NCBI RefSeq assembly: GCF_024300645.1
Contig: NZ_CP101291.1
Location: 1,612,001 to 1,676,000, forward strand
Reading direction: 5' to 3'
Length of the DNA stretch: 64,000 nucleotides
Source: Alteromonas sp. LMIT006
GTDB taxonomy: Bacteria; Pseudomonadota; Gammaproteobacteria; Enterobacterales; Alteromonadaceae
Positions 8,313 through 64,000 of this stretch are shown here, piece after piece. Within the stretch, counting starts at the first letter, position 1. Each line of letters starts with the position of its first letter. The notes below the pieces were generated by a model, which was given only the letters and a program-made list of their open reading frames with translations, had not been told where the DNA came from and did not search any database. The position numbers were made by a program, and so were the translations under genes.

Positions 8313-9710
8313 TCAGTAGTTCGCATTACCCGGTGTGCGTGGGAAGGGGATCACATCACGCACATTCTGCATACCTGTGACATAGGCAACCAGTCGTTCG
8401 AAGCCCAAACCGAAACCTGCGTGAGGTACGGTACCATAGCGACGCAAGTCACGATACCAGCTGTAATCTTCTTTGCTCAGTCCCATTTCTGCTAAACGCG
8501 CATCAAAGACATCCAAACGCTCTTCCCGTTGAGAGCCACCAATGATTTCACCAATCCCTGGCGCCAAGACATCCATCGCGGCAACGGTTTTACCGTCATC
8601 GTTTAGGCGCATGTAAAATGCTTTAATGTCTTTGGGATAATTTTGCATGATGATCGGCGCACCAACGTGCTCTTCTGCCAAATAGCGCTCGTGCTCTGAT
8701 GACAAATCAATGCCCCAAGAAACAGGGAATTCAAAGTCCTTGCCACAGTTTTCCAAAATCGTGATCGCATCGGTGTAATCCATGCGCACAAAATCTTGTT
8801 CGATGACTTTCTCTAAGCGGGAGATGGCGTCTTTATTGATGCGCTGAGCAAAAAACGCCATATCGTCGGCGCGTTCTTCTAATACCGCTTTGAATACATA
8901 TTTCAGCATGTCTTCGGCCAGACCGGCGATGGTATTCAAATCGGCAAACGCGACTTCTGGCTCAACCATCCAAAACTCGGCCAAATGGCGCGACGTATTG
9001 GAGTTCTCGGCACGGAAAGTGGGGCCAAAGGTATATACTTTGGACATCGCTGTACAATAAGTTTCGACGTTGAGCTGACCCGATACGGTCAGGAAGGTCT
9101 CTTTGCCAAAAAAGTCTTCCGAATAGTCCACTTCGCCTTTGTCATCGCGTGGAATGTTCATCATGTCCAAGGTTGAGACGCGGAACATTTCACCGGCACC
9201 TTCAGTATCTGAAGCGGTTAGGATCGGTGTTGAGATCCACATATAGCCACGCTCATGGAAGAAACGGTGCACGGCTTGGCTCAAACAGTTGCGCACTCGT
9301 GTCACTGCGCCAATGACATTGGTACGAGGGCGAAGGTGTGCATGTTCGCGAAGGTATTCAATCGAATGGCGTTTGGCCGCCATAGGGTAGGTGTCTGGGT
9401 TTTCGACCCAACCGATCACGCGAATGTCGTTGGCCTCAAGCTCAAGCGCTTGGCCTTGCCCTTCGGAGGCTTTGACGGTGGCATCCACTTCTAATGAACA
9501 GCCCGCAGTTAATCGAGTGACTTCATCGTAATTGGCGAGGGTATTGAGGGCAATGACTTGTACGGGATCAAAACAGCTGCCATCGTGCAATGCAACGAAA
9601 GACAAACCAGCTTTAGAATCGCGTCGGGTGCGCACCCAACCTTTTACGGTGACCGTATCACCGATTGCATAAGTACCGTTTAGTACATCAGTCACTGCGG
9701 CATACGCCAT
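8313..9710 (-). CDS. asnS: Asparaginyl-tRNA synthetase
   Basis: A 465-residue class IIb aminoacyl-tRNA synthetase that charges tRNA-Asn. An N-terminal OB-fold anticodon domain ([16 protein letters not shown]) is followed by the catalytic domain. Motif 2 is [21 protein letters not shown]-like and motif 3 contains [12 protein letters not shown]. The size equals E. coli AsnS (466). An AGGAG ribosome site precedes the ATG, and a promoter is visible between this gene and bioA, so it can be transcribed independently of bioA. Confidence 0.96.
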
Positions 9711-9743
9711 AGTTAATTACTCCTAAATTTTTGCTTGCGCGGG

Positions 9744-9773
9744 ATTATACGCATATTGAAAGCGAATGCCCAA
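9744..9773 (-). promoter_or_regulatory. Sigma70-type promoter of asnS
   Basis: On the minus strand, TTGGGC and a perfect TATAAT are separated by 18 bp, with the -10 box about 35 bp before the asnS start codon. The -10 match is perfect; the -35 is partial. Confidence 0.55.
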
Positions 9774-9779
9774 TAAAAA

Positions 9780-11048
9780 CTAAATTTGCACCCCAGTATA
9801 TATCGCATCACATAAGGCTTTAATGTGCTCTGGTTCACTGATAAACGGCGGCATGATGTACACTAATTTGCCAAAAGGGCGGATCCACACGCCTTGTTGC
9901 ACAAAATGCGCTTGGATTTTGGCCACATCTACGGGGGTTTTGGTTTCTACCACACCAATTGCACCCAAAATCCGGACATCAGCGACCTGAGGTAACTCAG
10001 CGCACCGGGGTAAATAGGCCTGAAGGGCCTGTTCAATTTGCGCCACCTGTGCCTGCCATGCTCCGCTGGCGATAAGTTCTAGCGACGCCGAGGCCACAGC
10101 ACAAGCCAAAGGATTGCCCATATACGTCGGGCCATGCATAAACACTCCGGGGGCGCCTTGGCACACCCCTAAGGCCACATCTTCGGTGCACAAGGTCGCA
10201 GCCATGGTCATATACCCGCCTGTCAGGGCTTTACCCAGACACAAAATATCAGGGGTAATGCCAGCGTGTTCGCAGGCAAATAACTTCCCAGTACGTCCAA
10301 AGCCCGTGGCGATTTCATCGGCGATCAACAAAATATTATACTCATCGCATAGTTGTCTTACTCGACGCACATACTCAGGGTGATACAGGCGCATCCCACC
10401 AGCACCTTGTACGACGGGCTCCAATATAATGGCGGCGATTTCGTGATGATGATCATTGAGTGTATCAACAAGAGGGGCTAGCTCATCTTCGTTCCACGTT
10501 TGGCCAAAACGGGTTTGTGGCGCGGGCACAAAAATTTGCTCAGCGAGCACATTTTTAAATAACGAGTGCATGCCATTGATGGGATCACACACCGACATGG
10601 CCGCAAACGTATCACCGTGATAGCCATTGCGCGGCGAGAGAATTTTGTGTTTGTGTGGCTGACCTTGGCAGGCAAAATATTGCAACGCCATCTTAATGGC
10701 GACTTCAACCGATACGGATCCTGAGTCGGCAAAAAATACGCGATTTAACCCCTCAGGTACCATAGCCAATAACTGTTTAGCCAGTTTAATGGCTGGCTCA
10801 TGGGTCAAACCACCAAACATAATATGCGAAAACTCATCGACCTGACGCTTCACTGCGGCATTGATATGTGGGTGGTTGTAACCGTGGATCGCCGCCCACC
10901 ACGATGACATCCCATCGATGAGCATCTCCCCACTGGCAAGGGTGATATGCACGCCATCGGTTTTGCTCACCTCATAGCAAGGCAATGGCTCAGTTGCCGA
11001 GGTATAGGGGTGCCAGATGTGGGCTTTGTCGTAATCGATGTTGTTCAT
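9780..11048 (-). CDS. bioA: Adenosylmethionine-8-amino-7-oxononanoate aminotransferase
   Basis: A 422-residue class III PLP aminotransferase that converts KAPA to DAPA using S-adenosylmethionine as amino donor in biotin synthesis. The N-terminal HPYTS and SSWWAAIHGYNHP substrate-site motifs typical of BioA are present. So are the PLP motifs DEIATGFGRTG and LGKALTGGYM, which carries the Schiff-base Lys. Length is typical (about 430). The gene diverges from bioBFCD with the probable BirA operator in between, the classic enterobacterial arrangement. Confidence 0.95.
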   Translation of the reverse strand: MNNIDYDKAHIWHPYTSATEPLPCYEVSKTDGVHITLASGEMLIDGMSSWWAAIHGYNHPHINAAVKRQVDEFSHIMFGGLTHEPAIKLAKQLLAMVPEGLNRVFFADSGSVSVEVAIKMALQYFACQGQPHKHKILSPRNGYHGDTFAAMSVCDPINGMHSLFKNVLAEQIFVPAPQTRFGQTWNEDELAPLVDTLNDHHHEIAAIILEPVVQGAGGMRLYHPEYVRRVRQLCDEYNILLIADEIATGFGRTGKLFACEHAGITPDILCLGKALTGGYMTMAATLCTEDVALGVCQGAPGVFMHGPTYMGNPLACAVASASLELIASGAWQAQVAQIEQALQAYLPRCAELPQVADVRILGAIGVVETKTPVDVAKIQAHFVQQGVWIRPFGKLVYIMPPFISEPEHIKALCDAIYTGVQI

Positions 11049-11067
11049 TTGGTTGTTTTTTATACAT

Positions 11068-11100
11068 AGGTCAACTTCGTATGTTTTATTAAGTTGACAA
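11068..11100. promoter_or_regulatory. Probable BirA operator between bioA and bioB
   Basis: An inverted repeat with 9-bp half-sites AGGTCAACT and AGTTGACAA separated by 15 bp (perfect inner arms GTCAACTT / AAGTTGAC). This is the half-site size and spacing of the gammaproteobacterial BirA operator (TTGTAAACC-N14/16-GGTTTACAA). The right half contains TTGACA (11094-11099), which with TAGACT 16 bp on makes a plausible bioB promoter, so binding would block transcription. Biotin-loaded BirA as the ligand is inferred. Confidence 0.72.
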
Positions 11101-11164
11101 GTTGAAGCATGTGCATAGACTAAGCGTTAACTACGATTAAGTAAAGACTGCAAAAGTAACCAAG

Positions 11165-12226
11165 ATGAACGCGCAAATTCCCCAGGCCCCTGATCAAATT
11201 AGACACAATTGGACGCAAAGCGAAGTAGACGCTTTGTTTGCATTGCCTTTTAACGATTTATTATTCCAAGCACAAACGGTACATCGTACGCATTTTGACC
11301 CAAATCACGTGCAAGTCAGCACCTTGTTATCGATTAAAACCGGTGCGTGCCCAGAAGACTGTAAATACTGCCCGCAAAGTGCGCGGTATGACACCGGTTT
11401 AGAAAAAGAACGTTTGTTGGAAATTGAAAAAGTCATCGAGCGCGCGAAAGAAGCAAAGGCAGCCGGCTCGACCCGTTTTTGTATGGGGGCGGCGTGGCGC
11501 AATCCCAAAGATCGCGATATGCCGTATGTTGTGGATATGGTCAAACAAGTCAAAGCGATGGGCATGGAAACCTGTATGACGTTGGGCATGCTCACGCGCG
11601 ACCAAGCCTTAATGCTCAAGCAAGCGGGCCTGGATTATTACAACCATAATCTAGATACGTCTCCAGAATACTACGGCGATATCATTACCACGCGTACCTA
11701 TCAAGACCGTTTAGACACACTGCAAAATGTGCGCGATGCCGGCATGAATGTGTGCAGTGGCGGGATTGTCGGCATGGGCGAGTCAGCACAAGACCGCTCG
11801 GGCTTGTTGATGGCACTGGCCAATCTTGAACGCCACCCAGAGAGTGTACCGATTAATATGCTGGTCAAAGTCAAAGGCACACCGCTTGATAAGGTGGACG
11901 ACTTGGATGGCTTTGAGTTTATTCGCACCATCGCGGTGGCGCGCATCATGATGCCCAAATCCTATGTGCGGTTATCCGCAGGGCGTGAGGCGATGAACGA
12001 GCAGATGCAGGCGCTGTGTTTTATGGCGGGCGCAAATTCGATTTTTTATGGGTGCAAACTGCTCACCACATCAAACCCAGAATCTCACGCGGATGTTCAG
12101 CTATTCAAAAAGCTCGGGATTAATCGCGAAATGACCAAATCGTTTTCGGATGAAGCGTACGAAGCGGCGTTAGCCGATGAAATCTCAGCGCAAGCTCAAG
12201 CAGAGTTGTATACCGAAGTGAAATAA
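11165..12226 (+). CDS. bioB: Biotin synthase
   Basis: A 353-residue radical-SAM enzyme that inserts sulfur into dethiobiotin. The CxxxCxxC cluster motif appears as [11 protein letters not shown] at about 59-69. Further family motifs are [20 protein letters not shown] and the C-terminal AGANSIFYG, where ligands of the auxiliary [2Fe-2S] cluster lie. It is the first gene of bioBFCD, and its TAA shares one base with the ATG of bioF (TAATG). Confidence 0.97.
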
Positions 12227-13410
12227 TGGATATGTCTGATTCGTTTGCAAAGCGTTTCCGCGCAGCGCTCGCCAAAAAAGCACAAGAAGACTTACTGCGT
12301 ACTCGTCGTATTGTCGAGGATGATTACGCTGGTGTGCTCAATGTCGATGGCAAGGCGTATTTGAATTTTGCCGCAAACGATTATTTGGGACTGCGTTTTG
12401 ATGAGCGTGTATTGCAACCGTTTGTCGAAGGTCTGTCAAAATATGGCGCAGGCTCTGGCGCATCGCCACTGGTCACCGGTCATAGTATTGAGCATGCGCG
12501 CTTGGAAGCTTGGTTAGCTGAAAAGCTTGGCCGCGAAGCGGTGTTGTTGTTCTCTTCTGGCTTTGCAGCCAATCACGCCTTGTGCCAAGCGCTGTTACAA
12601 AAAAACGATGTGGTGGTAAGCGATAAACTGATGCATGCTTCGTTTATTGAGGGCGCCATGGTCAGTGAGGCGCACTTAAAACGCTTCGCCCACAACGATA
12701 TCGCACATGCGAGGACGTTACTAGACGGGATTGATTCAAGTCATGCGGTGTTGCTTGCGTCAGAAGGCGTCTTCAGCATGGATGGTGATACTGCTCCAGT
12801 GGCTGATTTAGTTTCGCTCGCACATGAGAGTAACGCCATGTTGATGCTTGATGATGCGCATGCATTAGGAGTGTTAGGTGACAGAGGCCTTGGCAGTGTC
12901 GATGCGTTTAATTTAACACAAGACGATTGTCCGGTATTGATGGGCACCTTTGGTAAAGCGGTGGGCACATCCGGAGCGTTTATTGCCGGTTCACATGAGT
13001 TGATTGATTATCTGGTCAATCACGCCAAACACTATATTTATTCTACCGCGATGAGCGCGGCCAATGCGCGGGCGACGTTGGCCAGTCTTGAGTTGATTGT
13101 AGCCGGTGAGCAGCGGACTCGTTTATTCGCTAATATCGCCCGTTTTCGTGACGGTGTGGCGCGTCACGGGTTACCTGTTTTGGCTTCCAATACTGCTATT
13201 CAGCCGTTTATTATCGGTTCTGCCGATGGCGTGTTACAGGCATCCGACTATCTTCGTTCATTGGGGGTGTGGGTCGGCGCCATTCGCTCGCCTACCGTAC
13301 CTAAAGGCTCCGACCGCTTGCGTATTACCTTATCCGCGGTGCATTGTGATAAAGACATCGATGCGCTGATTGATGCCTTGTGTTTGCTAAGAGAGCAAGA
13401 ATGGGGGTAG
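12226..13410 (+). CDS. bioF: 8-amino-7-oxononanoate synthase
   Basis: A 394-residue alpha-oxoamine synthase that condenses L-alanine with pimeloyl-thioester to make KAPA. Motifs seen are ANDYLGL, GAGSGASPLVTGH, LLFSSGFAANHA, HASFIEGA, DDAHALGVLG and TFGKAVGTSGAF, which holds the PLP lysine. It starts inside the bioB stop (TAATG), and its own end overlaps the bioC start by 10 bp, so the operon is tightly coupled. Confidence 0.96.
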   Translation: MDMSDSFAKRFRAALAKKAQEDLLRTRRIVEDDYAGVLNVDGKAYLNFAANDYLGLRFDERVLQPFVEGLSKYGAGSGASPLVTGHSIEHARLEAWLAEKLGREAVLLFSSGFAANHALCQALLQKNDVVVSDKLMHASFIEGAMVSEAHLKRFAHNDIAHARTLLDGIDSSHAVLLASEGVFSMDGDTAPVADLVSLAHESNAMLMLDDAHALGVLGDRGLGSVDAFNLTQDDCPVLMGTFGKAVGTSGAFIAGSHELIDYLVNHAKHYIYSTAMSAANARATLASLELIVAGEQRTRLFANIARFRDGVARHGLPVLASNTAIQPFIIGSADGVLQASDYLRSLGVWVGAIRSPTVPKGSDRLRITLSAVHCDKDIDALIDALCLLREQEWG

Positions 13411-14159
13411 TCAATACATCGCCCACGGTGGATAAAATGCGTGTGGCCGAACAGTTTTCACGCCATGCCTCAGAGTATGTTAAACAAGCAAAAGTTCAGC
13501 ACCGCATTGCGGTTGAAGGCTTGGCTCGAGCATCAAAATGGTTTGCTGGCCGTGGTGAGTGTGTTGTCGACTTAGGGTGCGGGGTAGGGCACAACTTAGA
13601 TGCGTTGAGTGAGTACGCTGAAAAAGTCATTGGGGTCGATATTGCCACTGGTATGGTGGCTAATAATGTCTCTTCGCATCTTATTGTACAAAGCGATTTT
13701 GACGAGTTGAGTTTACCAAATGCATCGGTCGATTTTGTATTTTCATCAATGGCCTTGCAATGGTCGAATTCTCCGATGCGAGTTTTGAGTCATATTCATC
13801 GCATTTTAAAGCCAGGTGGCCGAGCCATGTGTGCCATTATGGTGTCGCCAAGTTTTGTGCGGTTGCATGAGGCGTTTACCGCTGCGGGCTTACCAGGACG
13901 GATCAATGAATTTGCAGCGAGCTCAGCATGGCACAGTGAGTTATTCAGTGAGTGTCAGTTGGACGAGCAAGTGTTTGTTGATGAGTTTGACGATTTTCGT
14001 GCGATGATGGGCTCAATTAAAGAGATTGGGGCGAGTACCGTGATAAGTCAAGCCGATGTGTCTCCAATAGGTCGTGCTCAATATGAACACATTATCGATG
14101 GTTTAGAAGGTGATTACAGTCTGGATTATCGCGTGTGTTTTTTGTCTTTAGTTAAGTAG
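13401..14159 (+). CDS. bioC: Malonyl-ACP O-methyltransferase
   Basis: A 252-residue SAM-dependent methyltransferase that methylates malonyl-ACP to open the pimelate branch of biotin synthesis. The SAM-binding motif I is VVDLGCGVGHNLDAL (about 55-70), followed by the acidic end of strand 2 (VIGVDIA) and the post-motif FVFSSMALQW. The N-terminal VAEQFSRHASEY is typical of BioC. ATG at 13401 lies inside the end of bioF with AAGAGAG upstream; an ATG at 13437 is a possible later start. Confidence 0.92.
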   Translation: MGVVNTSPTVDKMRVAEQFSRHASEYVKQAKVQHRIAVEGLARASKWFAGRGECVVDLGCGVGHNLDALSEYAEKVIGVDIATGMVANNVSSHLIVQSDFDELSLPNASVDFVFSSMALQWSNSPMRVLSHIHRILKPGGRAMCAIMVSPSFVRLHEAFTAAGLPGRINEFAASSAWHSELFSECQLDEQVFVDEFDDFRAMMGSIKEIGASTVISQADVSPIGRAQYEHIIDGLEGDYSLDYRVCFLSLVK

Positions 14160-14173
14160 AGGGTATGAGAATT

Positions 14174-14854
14174 ATGCAGGCGTTTTTTGTCACTGGCACG
14201 GATACGGATGTAGGCAAAACCGTCATCAGTGCGGGTCTTATGTTGGCGCTGACACAACATGGTCATTCTGTGATTGGACACAAGCCCATTTCGGCTGGGT
14301 GCGAGCTGGTTATTGAAGATGGGGAAGCCGGCTTACACAATGAAGATGCCTTGGCGTTGATGGCGCAAGCATCGGTTCAACTGCCCTATGAATGGGTCAA
14401 TCCCATTGCGTTTGCACAGCCAATTGCCCCGCACATCGCAGCAGACATGGCGCATCAGGCAATCGATACAGCGGTATTGGATGAGGCGTTGGCGCGTTTA
14501 CAGCAAGTCGATGCAGATGTTTTGTTGGTCGAAGGCGCGGGCGGTTGGGCGTTGCCCATTGGCAATGGCAAGCTGTTGTCTGAGTGGGTGGCCAAGCATC
14601 AATTACCCGTTGTGATCGTGGTAGCGTTGCGTCTGGGGTGTCTCAATCATGCGTTGTTAACCTATCAGGCGGTCAAAGCCAGTGGCTGTGACGTATTGGG
14701 TTGGGTGGCGAATGATTTTTGTGACCAGCCGTTTGCGCAAGAGAATATCAAAACACTCAAATCCATGTTGGATGCGCCGTGTTTGGGTGTGGTGGGTAAG
14801 GTGTCGAGAGCAGAAGAAGTCGCGGCGCAATTGGATGTGAAGGCTTTGGGTTAG
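14174..14854 (+). CDS. bioD: Dethiobiotin synthetase
   Basis: A 226-residue ATP-dependent carboxylase of the P-loop family that closes the ureido ring to give dethiobiotin. The P-loop is GTDTDVGKT near the N-terminus. HKPISAG and VLLVEGAGGW are the substrate and switch motifs. AGAGGG at 14158 has good spacing to the ATG at 14174 but sits against the upstream ATG at 14165, which decides the start. It is the last gene of bioBFCD and converges on the PIN toxin gene. Confidence 0.94.
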   Translation: MQAFFVTGTDTDVGKTVISAGLMLALTQHGHSVIGHKPISAGCELVIEDGEAGLHNEDALALMAQASVQLPYEWVNPIAFAQPIAPHIAADMAHQAIDTAVLDEALARLQQVDADVLLVEGAGGWALPIGNGKLLSEWVAKHQLPVVIVVALRLGCLNHALLTYQAVKASGCDVLGWVANDFCDQPFAQENIKTLKSMLDAPCLGVVGKVSRAEEVAAQLDVKALG

Positions 14855-14860
14855 AGCCAG

Positions 14861-15283
14861 TTACTTTTTTAAGCTTTTACAAATTCTAATTAGCTCCAAT
14901 GGCTCGTATACTGGGAGCTGAATACCTTTATAGTCCTTTGGGTTTCGCGTGACAATACCATCGGCTTTGCTGCACATACCCGAATATACTTGAACTGCAT
15001 CTTCGAAGTCCTTTAGTTCTGAATGTAGTGCTAAGTCTATGACTTTAGAATCAACAGATGATAGTTCGAAAATTGTAAGTAACTTTTCAATACTTGAGCG
15101 AGCGTGTTTTCGATTGTAAGTTTTTGATATTAAGTAATCTAAAGTGGTGACAGTTGTTGCACACAAGAATCCTCTTAAACGTCCTTGCTCAACAAAACTT
15201 ATTAATGTCGAAGAGTTTTTTACAAATTCATCACGTTCAAGCAGGACATCGAGCACGATGTTTGTATCAAATAAGATTTTCAC
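14861..15283 (-). CDS. PIN-domain ribonuclease toxin (VapC-like)
   Basis: A 140-residue PIN-domain protein. The opening strand ILFDTNIVLDVLLER carries the first acidic residue (D6), with later conserved acidics around EDAVQ and ADGIVTRNPKDY. That set forms the Mg2+-binding nuclease pocket of PIN toxins. Translation starts at GTG, overlapping the antitoxin stop by 4 bp (GTGA), as in toxin-antitoxin pairs. It probably cleaves RNA when released from the antitoxin; the target is unknown. Confidence 0.82.
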   Translation of the reverse strand: MKILFDTNIVLDVLLERDEFVKNSSTLISFVEQGRLRGFLCATTVTTLDYLISKTYNRKHARSSIEKLLTIFELSSVDSKVIDLALHSELKDFEDAVQVYSGMCSKADGIVTRNPKDYKGIQLPVYEPLELIRICKSLKK

Positions 15284-15516
15284 AAATATTTGCTTTCAAG
15301 GTGTTTTTTGTAGTCATCAACTGTCAGTTTCACTTTTTTAGAAGAACCAACAAGAGAGCGTGTAATTGGTGCGAGTTCTTGCTTTTCTTCTTCGCTTTGA
15401 ATTGCTGCAAAGTAATTAGCAACCACATGCGAAAGTGAGACACCATTATGCTGAGCATACCTTTTTGCAGAATCAATAAGTCGTTCTTCTAATCTTAATG
15501 TTAGCTTGGACTGCAT
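15280..15516 (-). CDS. DUF6364-type ribbon-helix-helix antitoxin
   Basis: A 78-residue protein whose N-terminus SKLTLRLEERLIDSAKRYA looks like a ribbon-helix-helix DNA-binding domain (strand about 3-9, then two helices to about 45). A basic/acidic tail likely embraces the toxin. This layout matches the DUF6364 antitoxins found next to PIN toxins. It lies directly upstream of the PIN gene with a 4-bp overlap, and a GGAGG ribosome site precedes the ATG. An inverted repeat just upstream is its likely operator. Confidence 0.8.
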   Translation of the reverse strand: MQSKLTLRLEERLIDSAKRYAQHNGVSLSHVVANYFAAIQSEEEKQELAPITRSLVGSSKKVKLTVDDYKKHLESKYL

Positions 15517-15534
15517 AACACCTCCTTAAAAAAT

Positions 15535-15564
15535 GACGTATAAATTTATATATAATTATACGTC
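15535..15564. promoter_or_regulatory. Inverted repeat, likely autoregulatory operator of the DUF6364-PIN pair
   Basis: Perfect 9-bp arms GACGTATAA and TTATACGTC with a 12-bp AT-rich centre lie about 19 bp upstream of the antitoxin start, where an RHH antitoxin would bind to repress its own promoter. The role is inferred from position and symmetry. Confidence 0.6.
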
Positions 15565-15650
15565 TAACTACGTAAAGTGCAATAATGTAAACACAAACTT
15601 TTCATTTAAGCGTCTCCGATCAGAGGAGTTTTGCAAATACCCCAAAAAAA

Positions 15651-16346
15651 TTAAAGATAAAGATGACTCAAGTCACTTCCTTTAGACACAACCGTTTTCT
15701 CAGCGTTCAAAAACTGAATCCCATCTTCAATATCAGCCAATTCCAATGATTCTCCATGCAATATCAACGCACTGCCTTCGCGTATGCCAATGATGGGAAT
15801 GTGCGGATGCAACAAACTAAACTCCATGAGCCGTTGGTCACGCGTTTCACCGTGAAAATCCTTTGGATGCTCATCGGTATAATGCGGGTTGAGTTGGAAT
15901 GGGACAAAACCCAGGGCGTTGAATGAGGGTGGTTCGATGATCGGCATGTCATTGGTGGTGCGAATGGTGGCACCGCAGATATTGGAGCCTGCGCTCCAAC
16001 CAATGTATGGCGTACCGGTTTTGACCGCTTCTTGAATGGGCGCTATTAAGCCTTGGGTTTGTAACTGATACAACAGATGAAACGTATTGCCGCCACCAAC
16101 CAGTATGGCTTCAGCGTCTTTAACAGCTTGAATTGGGTCGCTGAAGGTATGGATCCCGACAACCTGATACTCGGGCAGTGCTTGTTGTACCATCGCCGTG
16201 TAGTCGTCATAAGAGATGCTGACCCCGGCAAAGGGAACGAATAAGAGCCGTTTGCGATCCCCAAGGTGACGGTCAATGAGATCACGATTTGGGGCTAGGT
16301 ATTCTGAATTATGAGCGCGGGAGCTAGAAAGCATTAGTACGTGCAT
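15651..16346 (-). CDS. pepE: Dipeptidase E (alpha-aspartyl dipeptidase)
   Basis: A 231-residue S51-family serine peptidase that hydrolyses Asp-X dipeptides in the cytosol; the Salmonella enzyme has 229 residues. The nucleophile Ser lies in GWSAGSNICG, the Asp in TTNDMPI and the His in NPHYTDEHP, the family's unusual Ser-Asp-His order. GGGNTFHLLY is also conserved. ATG at 16346 with AAGAAGA upstream is preferred over the longer frame start at 16370. Confidence 0.92.
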   Translation of the reverse strand: MHVLMLSSSRAHNSEYLAPNRDLIDRHLGDRKRLLFVPFAGVSISYDDYTAMVQQALPEYQVVGIHTFSDPIQAVKDAEAILVGGGNTFHLLYQLQTQGLIAPIQEAVKTGTPYIGWSAGSNICGATIRTTNDMPIIEPPSFNALGFVPFQLNPHYTDEHPKDFHGETRDQRLMEFSLLHPHIPIIGIREGSALILHGESLELADIEDGIQFLNAEKTVVSKGSDLSHLYL

Positions 16347-16501
16347 GGTGAAATATCTTCTTGTTAGCAATCATTAATGGAGTCATTCTATAACAGATTT
16401 AATCTCAAATTGAAAAACGGTTAATACTGAAGTAGTCCAAGAGGTAGAAAATTAGGCATGATAGGCTATGCTCTTGACAAACAATTTTGTTAGGAAAAAC
16501 T

Positions 16502-38112: not shown

Positions 38113-38988
38113 TCAAATATCCACCCACGCTCTTAAATACAATATGACTGTGGACGTAGCTTTCCAGCCGCCTTTGAGCATGATCTTTTCGATGGGTGTG
38201 CCTGATTCCAGTAAATCTAATGCGCCACCCACACGAAACGAATGACTACTAAAGGACTTACCTTTAATACGAGCTTGATACTGGATGTCACGTAATATTG
38301 GATTGATGCTAGGACTGTGTAAGGGTTTATCCGGTATCGTGTTCCCTCGAGTTACCGGTCTCAAGATTGGGCCACTGCATAGCTTGTATTTATCTTGCCA
38401 GCGTTGGATATATGGGCAGATGCTACCTGGAAGACCAATCCAGTGTCCGACGCCAGCTTGGTCGGTTTTGGAACGACGCAGTAAAATCGCCAGTTTACCA
38501 TTTGAATGATAACGTATGTCTTCAAACTGCAAGCTGCACAATTCTGAACCGCGGCGCATTGAGTGATACCCAAGCAAGAGTAATAGGGCATTACGCAACC
38601 CCAAAGCGGTTCTGGTATTGCAGGCCTTTAACATTTTGTCTAAGTCTGCTTTTTGTAATGGGCGAGCTTGCGCCTGCAGCGAACCAAATTGACGAGTGCG
38701 TTTGCGCAAAAATAATCGAACATCTGGATCCTGTGTGACGTTTGGTTGACCAATGTATTGAAGATACATTTGGTAGCAGCTGATGCGAGAACGAATGGTG
38801 GATGTCTTGACTTCGGTACAACTATTGTTTAGATAGTCAATGAGCTGCTCTGCGCTCAATTGATTGATGTGGTAATCATTGCTGAGGCAATAGGCATTGA
38901 GATGCAGCAAATCGCGTTCGTAGGCGCGTATGGTATGTGGACTGTAAGCGCCATCCATGCGCTGGATAAATTGGTCAATGCAGTTCAT
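38113..38988 (-). CDS. Tyrosine recombinase (solo integrase)
   Basis: A 291-residue phage-integrase-family protein with an N-terminal SAM-like core-binding domain (about 1-95) and a catalytic domain. The full set of catalytic residues is visible: R146 (RRGSEL), K174 (RSKTD), H249 and R252 (HSFR), W275 (GGW) and Y284 (ILYLRAW). It is therefore likely active. It points against the polysaccharide genes, its stop lies 3 bp from the EPS regulator stop, and no phage or integron genes are next to it. A MazEF pair lies behind it. I could not identify attachment sites. Confidence 0.88.
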   Translation of the reverse strand: MNCIDQFIQRMDGAYSPHTIRAYERDLLHLNAYCLSNDYHINQLSAEQLIDYLNNSCTEVKTSTIRSRISCYQMYLQYIGQPNVTQDPDVRLFLRKRTRQFGSLQAQARPLQKADLDKMLKACNTRTALGLRNALLLLLGYHSMRRGSELCSLQFEDIRYHSNGKLAILLRRSKTDQAGVGHWIGLPGSICPYIQRWQDKYKLCSGPILRPVTRGNTIPDKPLHSPSINPILRDIQYQARIKGKSFSSHSFRVGGALDLLESGTPIEKIMLKGGWKATSTVILYLRAWVDI

Positions 38989-60943: not shown

Positions 60944-62086
60944 TTAATTAGATTTTGTTTTCTGCTCTTCCAAATTACTCAATTGGGAATTTGTTTTCAC
61001 AGGCCTCAAAGGAACAAACTCCCCCTCACTCTGCTTCATCGCCTCATCCATTAGCTCTGCTACACGTTTAGGCCAATTCCTAAGTAGCGTGATTGAGTAC
61101 AGCGCAAATGTAACCACAAATCCCCAAAACAATATCACTTCGGACACCACAAAATATTCACCCAACACACCCACTAATGCGCAGGTTGCACTGAATGAAC
61201 AGATGGTAAATAACGTAGCCAATTTACTTAGACCAACACGTTGAAATATGTGATGCAAATGGTCACGGTCCGGATAAAACGGTGACCGTCCTCGCTTGAC
61301 TCTGCGATACATAATTGCAGCCATATCCATCAAGGGCAGGGCAATTAACCACAGCGCCGTGACGGGGCGCATTATAGGAGTAGCAGTTGGCTGTGTAATG
61401 GTTAACAACATCCAAATCACCAAAAAACCAATCATCATTGAGCCAGCATCGCCCATAAAGACTCTGCGCTCTCGACCCAAGAACCCCATATTCATCATGA
61501 CGTAAGGCGCCATAGCGACGACCACAACGACGCACACATACGCAAGTTCATGTTGTTGGCTTAGATTCAATAAAACTGCCATGCCGGTAAATGTTACCAT
61601 CGACAACCCACCCAATAAGCCATCGATACCATCGACCATGTTAAAGGCGTTGATGGCGGCCAATACTGCAAATATTGTGACAACGGATGCAGCCCAACCA
61701 AGACTCATGTCACCCAACCCAAAGATATTCCCAATAAAATTGAGTTCCAATCCGGTGAAATACATCATGACACAGGTCAAAGCGACTTGAACGGCTAGAC
61801 GGTATTTGAAGCTGATATCAAATTTATCGTCAATAGCACCGACCACAATGAGGGTGAACAAACACAACAGCAAAAGTCCGGTGTGAGGTAAGATGTCAGG
61901 ATGAGAAAATAAAAAATAAGAAATGGAACTGAAAACGGCAATCCCGCCAACCAGAGGCACAACCCCTTCGTGTTGTTTACGAAGGTTCGGCGTATCGACT
62001 AACCCGATGTGTTTTGCCACTTTGCGAAGTACAAATAGCGCTGCAAAGGTAAAAAAGAAGACAAAAAAGAGCTCAATAATCATCAT
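60944..62086 (-). CDS. wecA: Undecaprenyl-phosphate GlcNAc-1-phosphate transferase
   Basis: A 380-residue polyprenyl-phosphate HexNAc-1-P transferase with about 11 membrane segments. Motifs are the Mg-binding DDKFDI, the catalytic NAFNMVDGIDGLLGG, GDAGSMMIGF and the HHIFQRVGLS carbohydrate loop. A hydrophilic C-terminal tail is present. It starts the lipid-linked unit on the inner leaflet. It is transcribed against the rest of the locus and diverges from the WbpM-like gene. Confidence 0.93.
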   Translation of the reverse strand: MMIIELFFVFFFTFAALFVLRKVAKHIGLVDTPNLRKQHEGVVPLVGGIAVFSSISYFLFSHPDILPHTGLLLLCLFTLIVVGAIDDKFDISFKYRLAVQVALTCVMMYFTGLELNFIGNIFGLGDMSLGWAASVVTIFAVLAAINAFNMVDGIDGLLGGLSMVTFTGMAVLLNLSQQHELAYVCVVVVVAMAPYVMMNMGFLGRERRVFMGDAGSMMIGFLVIWMLLTITQPTATPIMRPVTALWLIALPLMDMAAIMYRRVKRGRSPFYPDRDHLHHIFQRVGLSKLATLFTICSFSATCALVGVLGEYFVVSEVILFWGFVVTFALYSITLLRNWPKRVAELMDEAMKQSEGEFVPLRPVKTNSQLSNLEEQKTKSN

Positions 62087-62209
62087 ATTCCATTAAATTC
62101 GTCTTGAACGTGGTGAGTATAGCACATAAACTGAACATTGACGATGCATGTAATATGATGGTTTTGTGACATAATATTACGGATGCAATAAGGGCATGAA
62201 AACACCGAT

Positions 62210-63916
62210 ATGAAAAGAATCTTTCAATCAATGCGATCCAAACGCTATGTGGCCAGTGTTTTATTGGTACTGTGTGATGCGCTTGCGTTTATGGGCATTG
62301 GCTTGACCTTTTCCTTGATGGATCCGTCTCTTACACCAGACCTTCCATGGACGGTGCCCATCTCATACGCCATTGCGCTGTGCATCATTATGATGCTGTT
62401 GTTCAAATACGATTTTTACACCTGTTATCATTCCCAACAACGCCATTATCAAAATAAGGTGATTGGCTTGTTAGTCAGTTTGTGCACGTTCTTTTTGTTG
62501 TGCACGGTGATTGTATTACAACACCCTGTGGATACGTTGCCGGCGCTAGTCATGATCTTTGGTTTCATGGGCTATGTCTTGTGTTCACGTCTGGTGGCGA
62601 CGGTGTTTTTTAAACGCCGAGAAAAGGTGGTCTATTGGGGAGATCACATTGATATCGCCATGGCGTGTCCTGAAACGGCCAAAGCGTATTTGGTTGGACA
62701 GGTTGTGTGTCGTGACAGTATTCCGTTGGATTTCACCATTTATAAACGGGTAACGGATCATCAATTTTTTACTAAAAAATATCGTTTTCATACCTTAATC
62801 ATCGATGACAAGGTGCTGTGTCGACTCAATTTGACGCAGTTCCAAGAGTTGTTGATTGAGCCAATTGTTTTACGGGTCTTTGATACACAGTCTAAACGCA
62901 TCCGTCGACTCAATGCACTCGAGTTGATGCAGGCCACGCAAGCACACATCGGTGTCTATGGGACGCAAAGCCACACCACCAAGCAAACCGTTCCTGTTGT
63001 ATTGGACGGGGTCTGGCCAGAGACACTCAGAAATGGCCTAATTTCACAGATAACAACAACCGATGATGTGAATGCCGCAAACGTTCGCTGTGTGTATTTG
63101 CACTGCGCACTGGACGATGAGCACGTCCAGAAAATCCAATCTGACATCGAGCCTATTGCGGTGCAAAATGCATTACGGCAAGCATTAACTGAGATTGATA
63201 AGCTCAGCGCAGAGACGCATCTGATTGTGGTGTCGCAGTTCAGGCAAGGGATGTCTTTGCCTGCACGTTTATTACAGGGATGGTTAGAATTGGCCTATCA
63301 ACACAAAGCCGCAATGGTCAACGCATCCATCAATGTGGTGCGATTAGACAATACCCTTGACGATGTTGAACATTATTTGGGGACGTGCCAAACATCAGTG
63401 AACCAGCATCGCGCTTTGACCTTATTGTCCCCATATGAGCAGGTACGAGTGCATACACCGAAACAACTTTATGCCTGGGCGCGCTTTATCCACCAACTCT
63501 GTGAGAGACAACAATCAGGCATGTATCGCATCGAAAACAGTGTGCCATGGCATGAACTCATGTTGATGGAACATATGATTTTAGCCGAAGGGTTATCGCC
63601 TAAGATATATGGACAAAGTGTCCTGAGGCCGTATGAAGTCGCTATTGATTTTAGACAGGACAATGCGTTGTCGATACAAGACTATTTTAAGCACTCAGGG
63701 AAAGGGACTGGATGGCAGCATGTCATCGAATTACCTCAATCATCAATGACTCGAACGCAATTCAATCAAACCATGCATTGGTTGTTATCGCAAGATGCGG
63801 CGGCCCTATCAAGCCAAATGCTAAGGGTCTTACAAGGTGATGCGATACCTTCTGCCAAAGAGACTGATAAAGTCGTGAACGTGAGATTTGGTGAAATCTT
63901 TACGCAAAGAGGTTAA
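62210..63916 (+). CDS. WbpM/CapD-like membrane protein with a degenerate SDR domain
   Basis: A 568-residue protein. Four N-terminal helices (about 14-135) and a CapD-type CoA_binding_3-like domain (about 140-240) resemble WbpM/PglF nucleotide-sugar 4,6-dehydratases. The C-terminal half follows the SDR outline but without the catalytic motifs. PVVLDGVWPETLRNG stands where TGAGGSIGSEL should be (about 262-276), VYLHCALDD stands for YHAAAYKHVP, and VSQFRQGMSLPARL for STDKA...GASKR. Later blocks (MVNASINVVRLDN; PYEQVRVHTPKQLYAWARFIHQL; GMYRIENSVPWHELMLMEHMILAEGLSP) keep the order of the family. It is therefore probably a non-enzymatic relative. The alignment was made by eye. Confidence 0.62.
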   Translation: MKRIFQSMRSKRYVASVLLVLCDALAFMGIGLTFSLMDPSLTPDLPWTVPISYAIALCIIMMLLFKYDFYTCYHSQQRHYQNKVIGLLVSLCTFFLLCTVIVLQHPVDTLPALVMIFGFMGYVLCSRLVATVFFKRREKVVYWGDHIDIAMACPETAKAYLVGQVVCRDSIPLDFTIYKRVTDHQFFTKKYRFHTLIIDDKVLCRLNLTQFQELLIEPIVLRVFDTQSKRIRRLNALELMQATQAHIGVYGTQSHTTKQTVPVVLDGVWPETLRNGLISQITTTDDVNAANVRCVYLHCALDDEHVQKIQSDIEPIAVQNALRQALTEIDKLSAETHLIVVSQFRQGMSLPARLLQGWLELAYQHKAAMVNASINVVRLDNTLDDVEHYLGTCQTSVNQHRALTLLSPYEQVRVHTPKQLYAWARFIHQLCERQQSGMYRIENSVPWHELMLMEHMILAEGLSPKIYGQSVLRPYEVAIDFRQDNALSIQDYFKHSGKGTGWQHVIELPQSSMTRTQFNQTMHWLLSQDAAALSSQMLRVLQGDAIPSAKETDKVVNVRFGEIFTQRG

Positions 63917-64000
63917 CCTTTTTTGGCAAACTCATCCGAGGCTGAAGCGGTCGATGAAGTCGATGCGGGAGAACGCACGGCACGGATGGAGGACAACGTG
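63913..64000 (-). CDS. 3' end of a minus-strand gene
   Basis: The minus strand is open from the window edge to a TAA at 63913-63915, which interlocks with the TAA of the WbpM-like gene (shared TTAA). The visible 28 codons read like a Ser/Ala-rich C-terminal tail ending ASDEFAKKG. No family can be assigned from so little; reality is judged from the clean convergent arrangement. Confidence 0.4.
   Translation of the reverse strand, partial: TLSSIRAVRSPASTSSTASASDEFAKKG

Follow-up and report, generated by a model that had tools for sequence, protein, structure and literature searches.

An orphan gene for a predicted membrane protein between two wecA paralogues at the end of a Wzy-type capsule locus, and its comparison with WbpM

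Proteins of the WbpM/PglF/CapD type, which are membrane-anchored UDP-GlcNAc 4,6-dehydratases, have a hydrophobic N-terminus of four segments followed by a long soluble part. This is also the layout of the open reading frame (ORF) product described here, which is about 70 residues shorter than the WbpM median of 640 aa (66 frames). WbpM genes can adjoin wecA (L065 and L079, divergently in L079) or sit two genes off (L088), with full-length WbpM present in 3 of the 78 named wecA loci scanned, and WbpL is itself of the WecA type. WbpM has a membrane anchor at its N-terminus and an SDR region at its C-terminus, and both WbpM and PglF are described as carrying TDK...Mx3K (PMC8987622). One study reports that, across all the Pseudomonas genomes it examined, the two conserved genes of the O-antigen cluster region are WbpL and WbpM (PMC6804347), and another that cell-wall metabolites inhibit CapD in S. 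aureus (PMC6441080); it is therefore reasonable to consider a WbpM-derived partner for WecA. The literature searched yielded no paper on WbpM together with a pseudoenzyme; papers that mention both short-chain dehydrogenases and pseudoenzymes do exist.

Unlike WbpM, the ORF product lacks a Gly-rich loop, has no TDK...Mx3K in place, and gives no sequence signal over the whole soluble part. Two further groups of proteins invite comparison. The polyprenyl-phosphate sugar transferases (PHPT; TIGR03025, TIGR03022) resemble the ORF product weakly at the N-terminus, whereas the part after the membrane segments is without PHPT signal. RmlD and other extended SDRs have a strand-helix order that by eye is similar over residues 256-480, but the ORF product has neither their motif nor a significant profile match.

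The ORF lies near the end of the 64,000-nucleotide stretch of DNA that was analysed (the window), in the small genome of a marine bacterium, one contig of 2,533,120 bases. For Opacimonas immobilis LMIT016T, very probably the same species as the host, a 2.53 Mb genome with three Group I capsule loci is described (PMC12844025). A Wzy-type capsule locus ends with the ORF and includes wza, wzb, wzc, pseB, glycosyltransferases, wzx, gmd, fcl, manC, wecG, and galE; these names were mostly given by reading the frames, with PF02719 found at pseB and Pfam run for wecG, galE, and both wecA genes. A tyrosine recombinase gene (Phage_integrase, Pfam) is situated inside the locus at 38116-38988, between wzc and pseB. 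The features in and around the ORF, in window coordinates, are as follows.

60944..62086, minus strand: wecA paralogue 1 (Glycos_transf_4, Pfam), divergent from the ORF with 123 bp between the starts
62210..63916, plus strand: orphan ORF of 568 aa with a hydrophobic N-terminal part and a soluble part of about 430 aa (from frame, hydropathy, and codon score)
62210..62623, plus strand: residues 1-138, predicted membrane part with 4 hydrophobic segments and weak, unspecific resemblance to WbpM and PHPT
62624..63913, plus strand: residues 139-568, predicted soluble part, without significant relative in the searches
63002..63028, plus strand: LDGVWPETL, residues 265-273, proposed in the initial annotation as the site of the Gly-rich NAD loop
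63233..63250, plus strand: SQFRQG, residues 342-347, proposed there as the site of STDKA
63913..64000, minus strand: 3' end of wecA paralogue 2 (Pfam), convergent with the ORF and running on past the window

The position beside wecA that had been noted initially is borne out, and a second wecA flanks the ORF on its other side, where the two stop codons overlap by 4 nt. The wecA paralogues share 57% identity (G000:C1 1672947-1674086 and 1676006-1677052; window 60944-62086 and from 63913 on). Among 10 genus genomes only 2 had wecA matches at E <= 0.001, the ORF genome and O. viscosa; in the latter 57 bp separate the wecA frames and no ORF lies between them, so that absence of the ORF with the same wecA pair is seen in one sampled relative. 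Pairs of wecA occur elsewhere too, close together in O. viscosa as in the ORF genome, adjacent in G219, separated by one frame in G076, and on opposite strands in G042. An imperfect 16-nt inverted repeat (88%; 62078-62093 and 62148-62163) spans the start of wecA paralogue 1 and the divergent intergenic region, and is a possible operator. Locus L002 encodes 2 long proteins of 754 and 800 aa (9033-11297 and 13238-15640) that are N/D-repeat-rich by reading and had no Pfam match at E 0.001; with a CsgG-type gene close to both (15647-16477), they are perhaps oversized curlin-like subunits.

The ORF begins with ATG and continues for 568 codons with 0 in-frame stops, against 22 to 32 stops per frame when the same stretch is read in the five others. 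Its codon score of 0.147 compares with 0.127 for the neighbouring wecA and with negative values in the five other frames, is positive in 10 of 10 listed 100-codon windows, and goes with a GC3 of 0.50. The ORF is a genuine coding-like orphan gene, and the full-length, clean frame claimed for it initially was confirmed, with host-like codon use. The accompanying claim that it is kept by selection agrees with codon use, but the collections searched yielded only the one copy. No well-placed Shine-Dalgarno site was seen by eye ahead of the ATG, promoter-like sites in 61900-64000 numbered 5 against 4.3 in shuffles, and a repeat search of the flanks gave no clear insertion repeats. The possibility that a frameshifted WbpM is encoded in a different frame or on the opposite strand was rejected: with 5 profiles run on all six frames, no frame other than that of the ORF did better than E 0.07.

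The reading that we tentatively favour, at somewhat less than even probability, is that the ORF product is a lineage-specific, non-catalytic accessory or regulatory partner of WecA-type capsule priming in the inner membrane. Four N-terminal helices would be followed by about 430 probably cytoplasmic residues, and the protein would act with one or both of the flanking WecA-type transferases at the capsule-polysaccharide priming step. We infer the topology, the partnership, and the lack of catalysis, and gene position is the one thing that ties the product to WecA. Counting for this accessory role are the coding frame, the WbpM-like hydrophobic layout, a TIGR03025 match in the membrane part, a WbpM-profile score of that part on a level with PHPT N-termini and reached by few other membrane windows, the two wecA neighbours, the O. 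viscosa pair that lacks the ORF, and a soluble part with no significant family match. Counting against it are a membrane-part score far below that of WbpM members and reached by part of the window-shuffled copies, other membrane families that match equally well, the want of a well-placed Shine-Dalgarno site, and promoter-like sites hardly above the shuffled number; a new enzyme with motifs of its own is also possible.

By sequence comparison, the ORF lacks a convincing homologue in the collections searched. The protein retrieved itself alone from 40 relatives (E <= 0.001) and from 395 family genomes (E <= 0.005). At E <= 1, matches were obtained in 28 of 295 family genomes including its own, and these were weak (best other E 0.0176); at E <= 0.05, they were obtained in 14 of 394 order genomes including its own, the best other being a GGDEF-type membrane protein at E 0.0012. 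The family and order genome sets overlap. Four of the weak order-genome matches (E 0.001-0.03) were read and rejected, and proved to include that GGDEF-type protein, two transporter-like proteins, and soluble frames. A tblastn search of fetched loci gave E 0.003 for L140, one of the weak matches (residues 124-207, 29% identity). We judge the weak genome matches, L140 included, to be chance matches, and most weak-match loci had been picked because they scored.

Other collections gave a similar picture. A peptide-pattern search of 84,980 species found no relative of the ORF, and the pattern matches present in genome contigs and viral contigs included none. Plasmids gave one match at E 0.7, phages none at E <= 0.01, and comparison of the product with Pfam, PHROGs, and solved structures nothing below E 0.003; the soluble part (residues 139-568) had no significant family match. 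Diverged orthologues beside wecA were sought in 12 mapped regions and in 13 of the 78 named loci, and none had an ORF match clearly below E 0.1. A layout scan for frames of 400-900 aa in 129 loci listed 18 from WbpM and a single other (L054), situated inside a PHPT match.

These results bear directly on the first alternative, that the product is an orphan membrane protein of unrelated origin, acquired by the Opacimonas immobilis lineage at the wecA junction, and that its fold and role have no connection with nucleotide sugars. The protein's solitary retrieval from relatives and family genomes, the weak and unconvincing matches or none elsewhere, and the O. viscosa wecA pair without the ORF are all consistent with such an origin. 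Its place in a capsule locus, flanked by two genes for priming transferases, argues the other way, as does an anchor score slightly above that of most other membrane windows (see below), and we regard an unconnected orphan as doubtful.

A second alternative, which we consider unlikely, is that of a WbpM/CapD-derived pseudoenzyme that has kept the anchor and a degenerate SDR domain, has lost nucleotide binding and catalysis, and may dock WecA as a scaffold. It draws first on the anchor. Four N-terminal helices had been proposed, and four hydrophobic segments are indeed present in residues 1-138 (predicted helices, centred on residues 23, 56, 93, and 121 in a simple hydropathy scan that found none after residue 138). 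Four segments were likewise counted in 16 of the 18 WbpM frames from the layout scan and three in 2, in a scan that selects for such a layout. The membrane part matched TIGR03025 (EPS_sugtrans, NCBIfam) over residues 24-140 at E 0.0037, with 16.5 bits where the family cut-off is 295.55, and TIGR03022 (WbaP) matched the N-terminus at E 0.038, far under the family cut-off. Other families did as well as TIGR03025 on the same stretch (7TMR-DISM 17.8 bits, DUF2339 16.0 bits).

Against a profile of 66 WbpM sequences, the score of the membrane part was reached by 0 of 200 shuffles in three settings (z 5.0-5.8) and by 0, 1, and 0 of 1223 mixed windows. An 18-sequence WbpM profile gave a weaker signal, reached by 6, 0, and 12 of 300 shuffles and 11, 2, and 18 of 1282 windows. 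With 1066 control membrane windows of 3-5 hydrophobic segments each, the score was reached by 6, 1, and 15 on the WbpM profile (three gap settings) and by 11, 6, and 3 on the PHPT profile. Shuffling within 20-residue windows left 9 and 2 of 300 sequences at or above the score, and shuffling within 10-residue windows 42 and 34 of 300. In local HMMER runs 4 of 646 membrane windows and 7 of 637 reached it, and the best of 297 whole shuffles beat it on the WbpM profile; another profile run gave the membrane part E 0.0084 for one sequence. On the WbpM profile the membrane part scored 41 and 45, compared with medians of 40 and 41 for PHPT N-termini (n=29), and far below the medians of 258 and 256 for WbpM members. 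The profiles were built from 66 of 78 WbpM loci (12 were dropped for want of a frame > 500 aa with a Gly-rich motif), 29 of 30 PHPT loci, and 17 of 30 RmlD loci, and the profile tests were run at more than one gap cost and degree of profile softness. Together, the comparisons are suggestive of a likeness between the membrane part and WbpM but are not specific, and a membrane part of WbpM/PHPT type is plausible.

The initial annotation had gone further, describing a WbpM/CapD-like protein whose NAD-binding and catalytic motifs were replaced. LDGVWPETL and SQFRQG are at the quoted residues and no NAD or catalytic motif is present there, but to call the motifs lost presumes an undemonstrated ancestry, since the tests do not separate the soluble part from shuffled or unrelated sequence. 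A pattern scan of the product found no G..G..G, G.G..G, YG.G, or STD, and the Gly-rich NAD(P) loop (GAGGSIG) and the catalytic TDK plus Mx3K of WbpM/PglF/CapD were not found. A looser glycine run, GKGTG, occurs at residue 497 near the C-terminus, far from the expected place of an NAD(P) loop; the sole TDK, at residue 552, is also far from its expected place. The sole [YM]...K is at residue 62 in the membrane part, and the soluble part contains no Yx3K or Mx3K.

The order of the later blocks, which had been said to follow WbpM, was not confirmed beyond what chance gives. In a MAFFT alignment with 17 WbpM-type SDRs the ORF keeps 10 of 48 near-invariant SDR residues; at least as many are kept in 113 of 150 shuffles and in 200 of 228 unrelated proteins. 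The same count in SDRs of the host is 38/53 for PseB, 23/54 for GalE, 17/54 for Gmd, 16/54 for Fcl, and 15/53 for an RmlD-like protein, and thus has little power for SDR families other than the WbpM type. The by-eye pairing of later blocks (VVRLDNT with MVRFGNV) was rejected because MAFFT aligns equally many conserved residues to shuffled or unrelated sequences, and by-eye block order is, as that count shows, easily matched by shuffled sequence. The whole SDR block gave z 0.7 and 1.3, the SDR-plus-tail block z 0.2 to 1.3 across the shuffle types used, and the CoA-binding-like block z -0.8 to 0.4. The SDR-block score of the ORF is -66, compared with 373 for PseB, 100 for GalE, 58.5 for Gmd, 17.2 for Fcl, and -20.4 for the RmlD-like protein of the same genome. 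No PF02719 or WbpM profile match across an SDR domain was found, and hhalign of a WbpM alignment with the ORF gave a probability of 0.4% over 16 columns. An AlphaFold2 single-sequence model made with no alignment had a mean pLDDT of 38.8, too low to be interpreted.

Some shorter blocks scored better. Over residues 372-560, 3 and 0 of 300 shuffles reached the WbpM score (2 and 1 of 300 with 10-residue windows), and over residues 290-560, 1 and 0 of 300; both blocks were picked post hoc, after the alignments. On a broad profile of 107 SDR sequences with free placement, the stretch from strand 6 to the end was reached by 1 to 4 of 230 unrelated proteins. WbpM near wecA in L065, L079, and L088 also favours the pseudoenzyme, as does the lack of a full-length WbpM in the ORF genome, where PF02719 at E <= 1e-90 is found in PseB only; 4 of 9 congeners (G001, G004, G006, G009) have PF02719 frames of 633-663 aa, and G005 has a split match. 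Weighing against it, in addition to the whole-block, motif-residue, and SDR-block scores above, longer blocks of the broad profile were reached by 25-71 of 230 (from strand 4) and 67-97 of 230 (from strand 1, in the settings that gave a value). The 66-sequence WbpM profile with free placement was reached by 13 and 71 of 236 from strand 6 to the end, and by 20 and 109 of 236 from strand 4. Taken as a whole, the signal of residues 372-560 is weak and mixed. These free-placement controls are a fairer version of the fixed-end scores, in which 0-3 of 1500 real windows reached the ORF from strand 6 to LRP, with ends chosen by eye. The full-length ORF gave an intermediate result: 2 and 0 of 200 shuffles that kept the two parts apart reached its score, as did 18 and 16 of 200 (20-residue) and 63 and 43 of 200 (10-residue) window shuffles. 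WbpM ancestry of the ORF is possible, while descent of the soluble part from WbpM was not supported by the profile, motif-count, or whole-domain tests. A more specific proposal, that a WbpM-descended, membrane-anchored pseudo-dehydratase replaced the active enzyme and became a scaffold or regulator choosing or gating which of the two duplicated WecA proteins primes the capsule, seems improbable to us.

The product might also be a divergent active enzyme, with an SDR or another sugar-nucleotide or transferase fold, that uses different residues. By eye, residues 256-480 have strands and helices in an order that fits an extended SDR, and on the RmlD profile that stretch was reached by 3 of 150 shuffles and by 13 of 600 windows of real sequence. 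Residues 285-500 and 370-500, however, did no better than chance, with 28 and 23 of 150 shuffles reaching them, and the later parts of the RmlD profile with free placement were reached by 27-103 of 230. No SDR family was listed for the ORF at E <= 10, in searches whose HMMER filters drop most matches > 0.1, and no PF04321 (RmlD) domain match was listed. RmlD ancestry was rejected, since 15 and 5 of 230 unrelated proteins matched the score of the ORF on the whole profile in free placement. For the soluble part, PHPT ancestry was likewise rejected (z -0.07, with 104 of 200 shuffles reaching the post-membrane score), and the C-terminal sugar-transferase domain of PHPT (TIGR03025) was not found. 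With these values, and with a soluble part devoid of Yx3K and Mx3K, a divergent enzyme is very improbable.

A non-functional relic, or a newly born frame yet to gather stops, would suit the one known copy and the failure to see a well-placed ribosome site, but is scarcely probable given 568 open codons, a codon score positive in every listed window, tight packing against wecA paralogue 2, and a genome (very probably that of Opacimonas immobilis) described as streamlined (PMC12844025).

If the ORF product is a partner in capsule priming, as we tentatively propose, it would add a new, non-enzymatic component to the initiation of Wzy-dependent polysaccharides. Opacimonas immobilis is described as a diatom-attached bacterium with a streamlined genome, whose surface polysaccharide is thought to help it attach (PMC12844025), and a priming partner of this kind would have been retained there despite streamlining.
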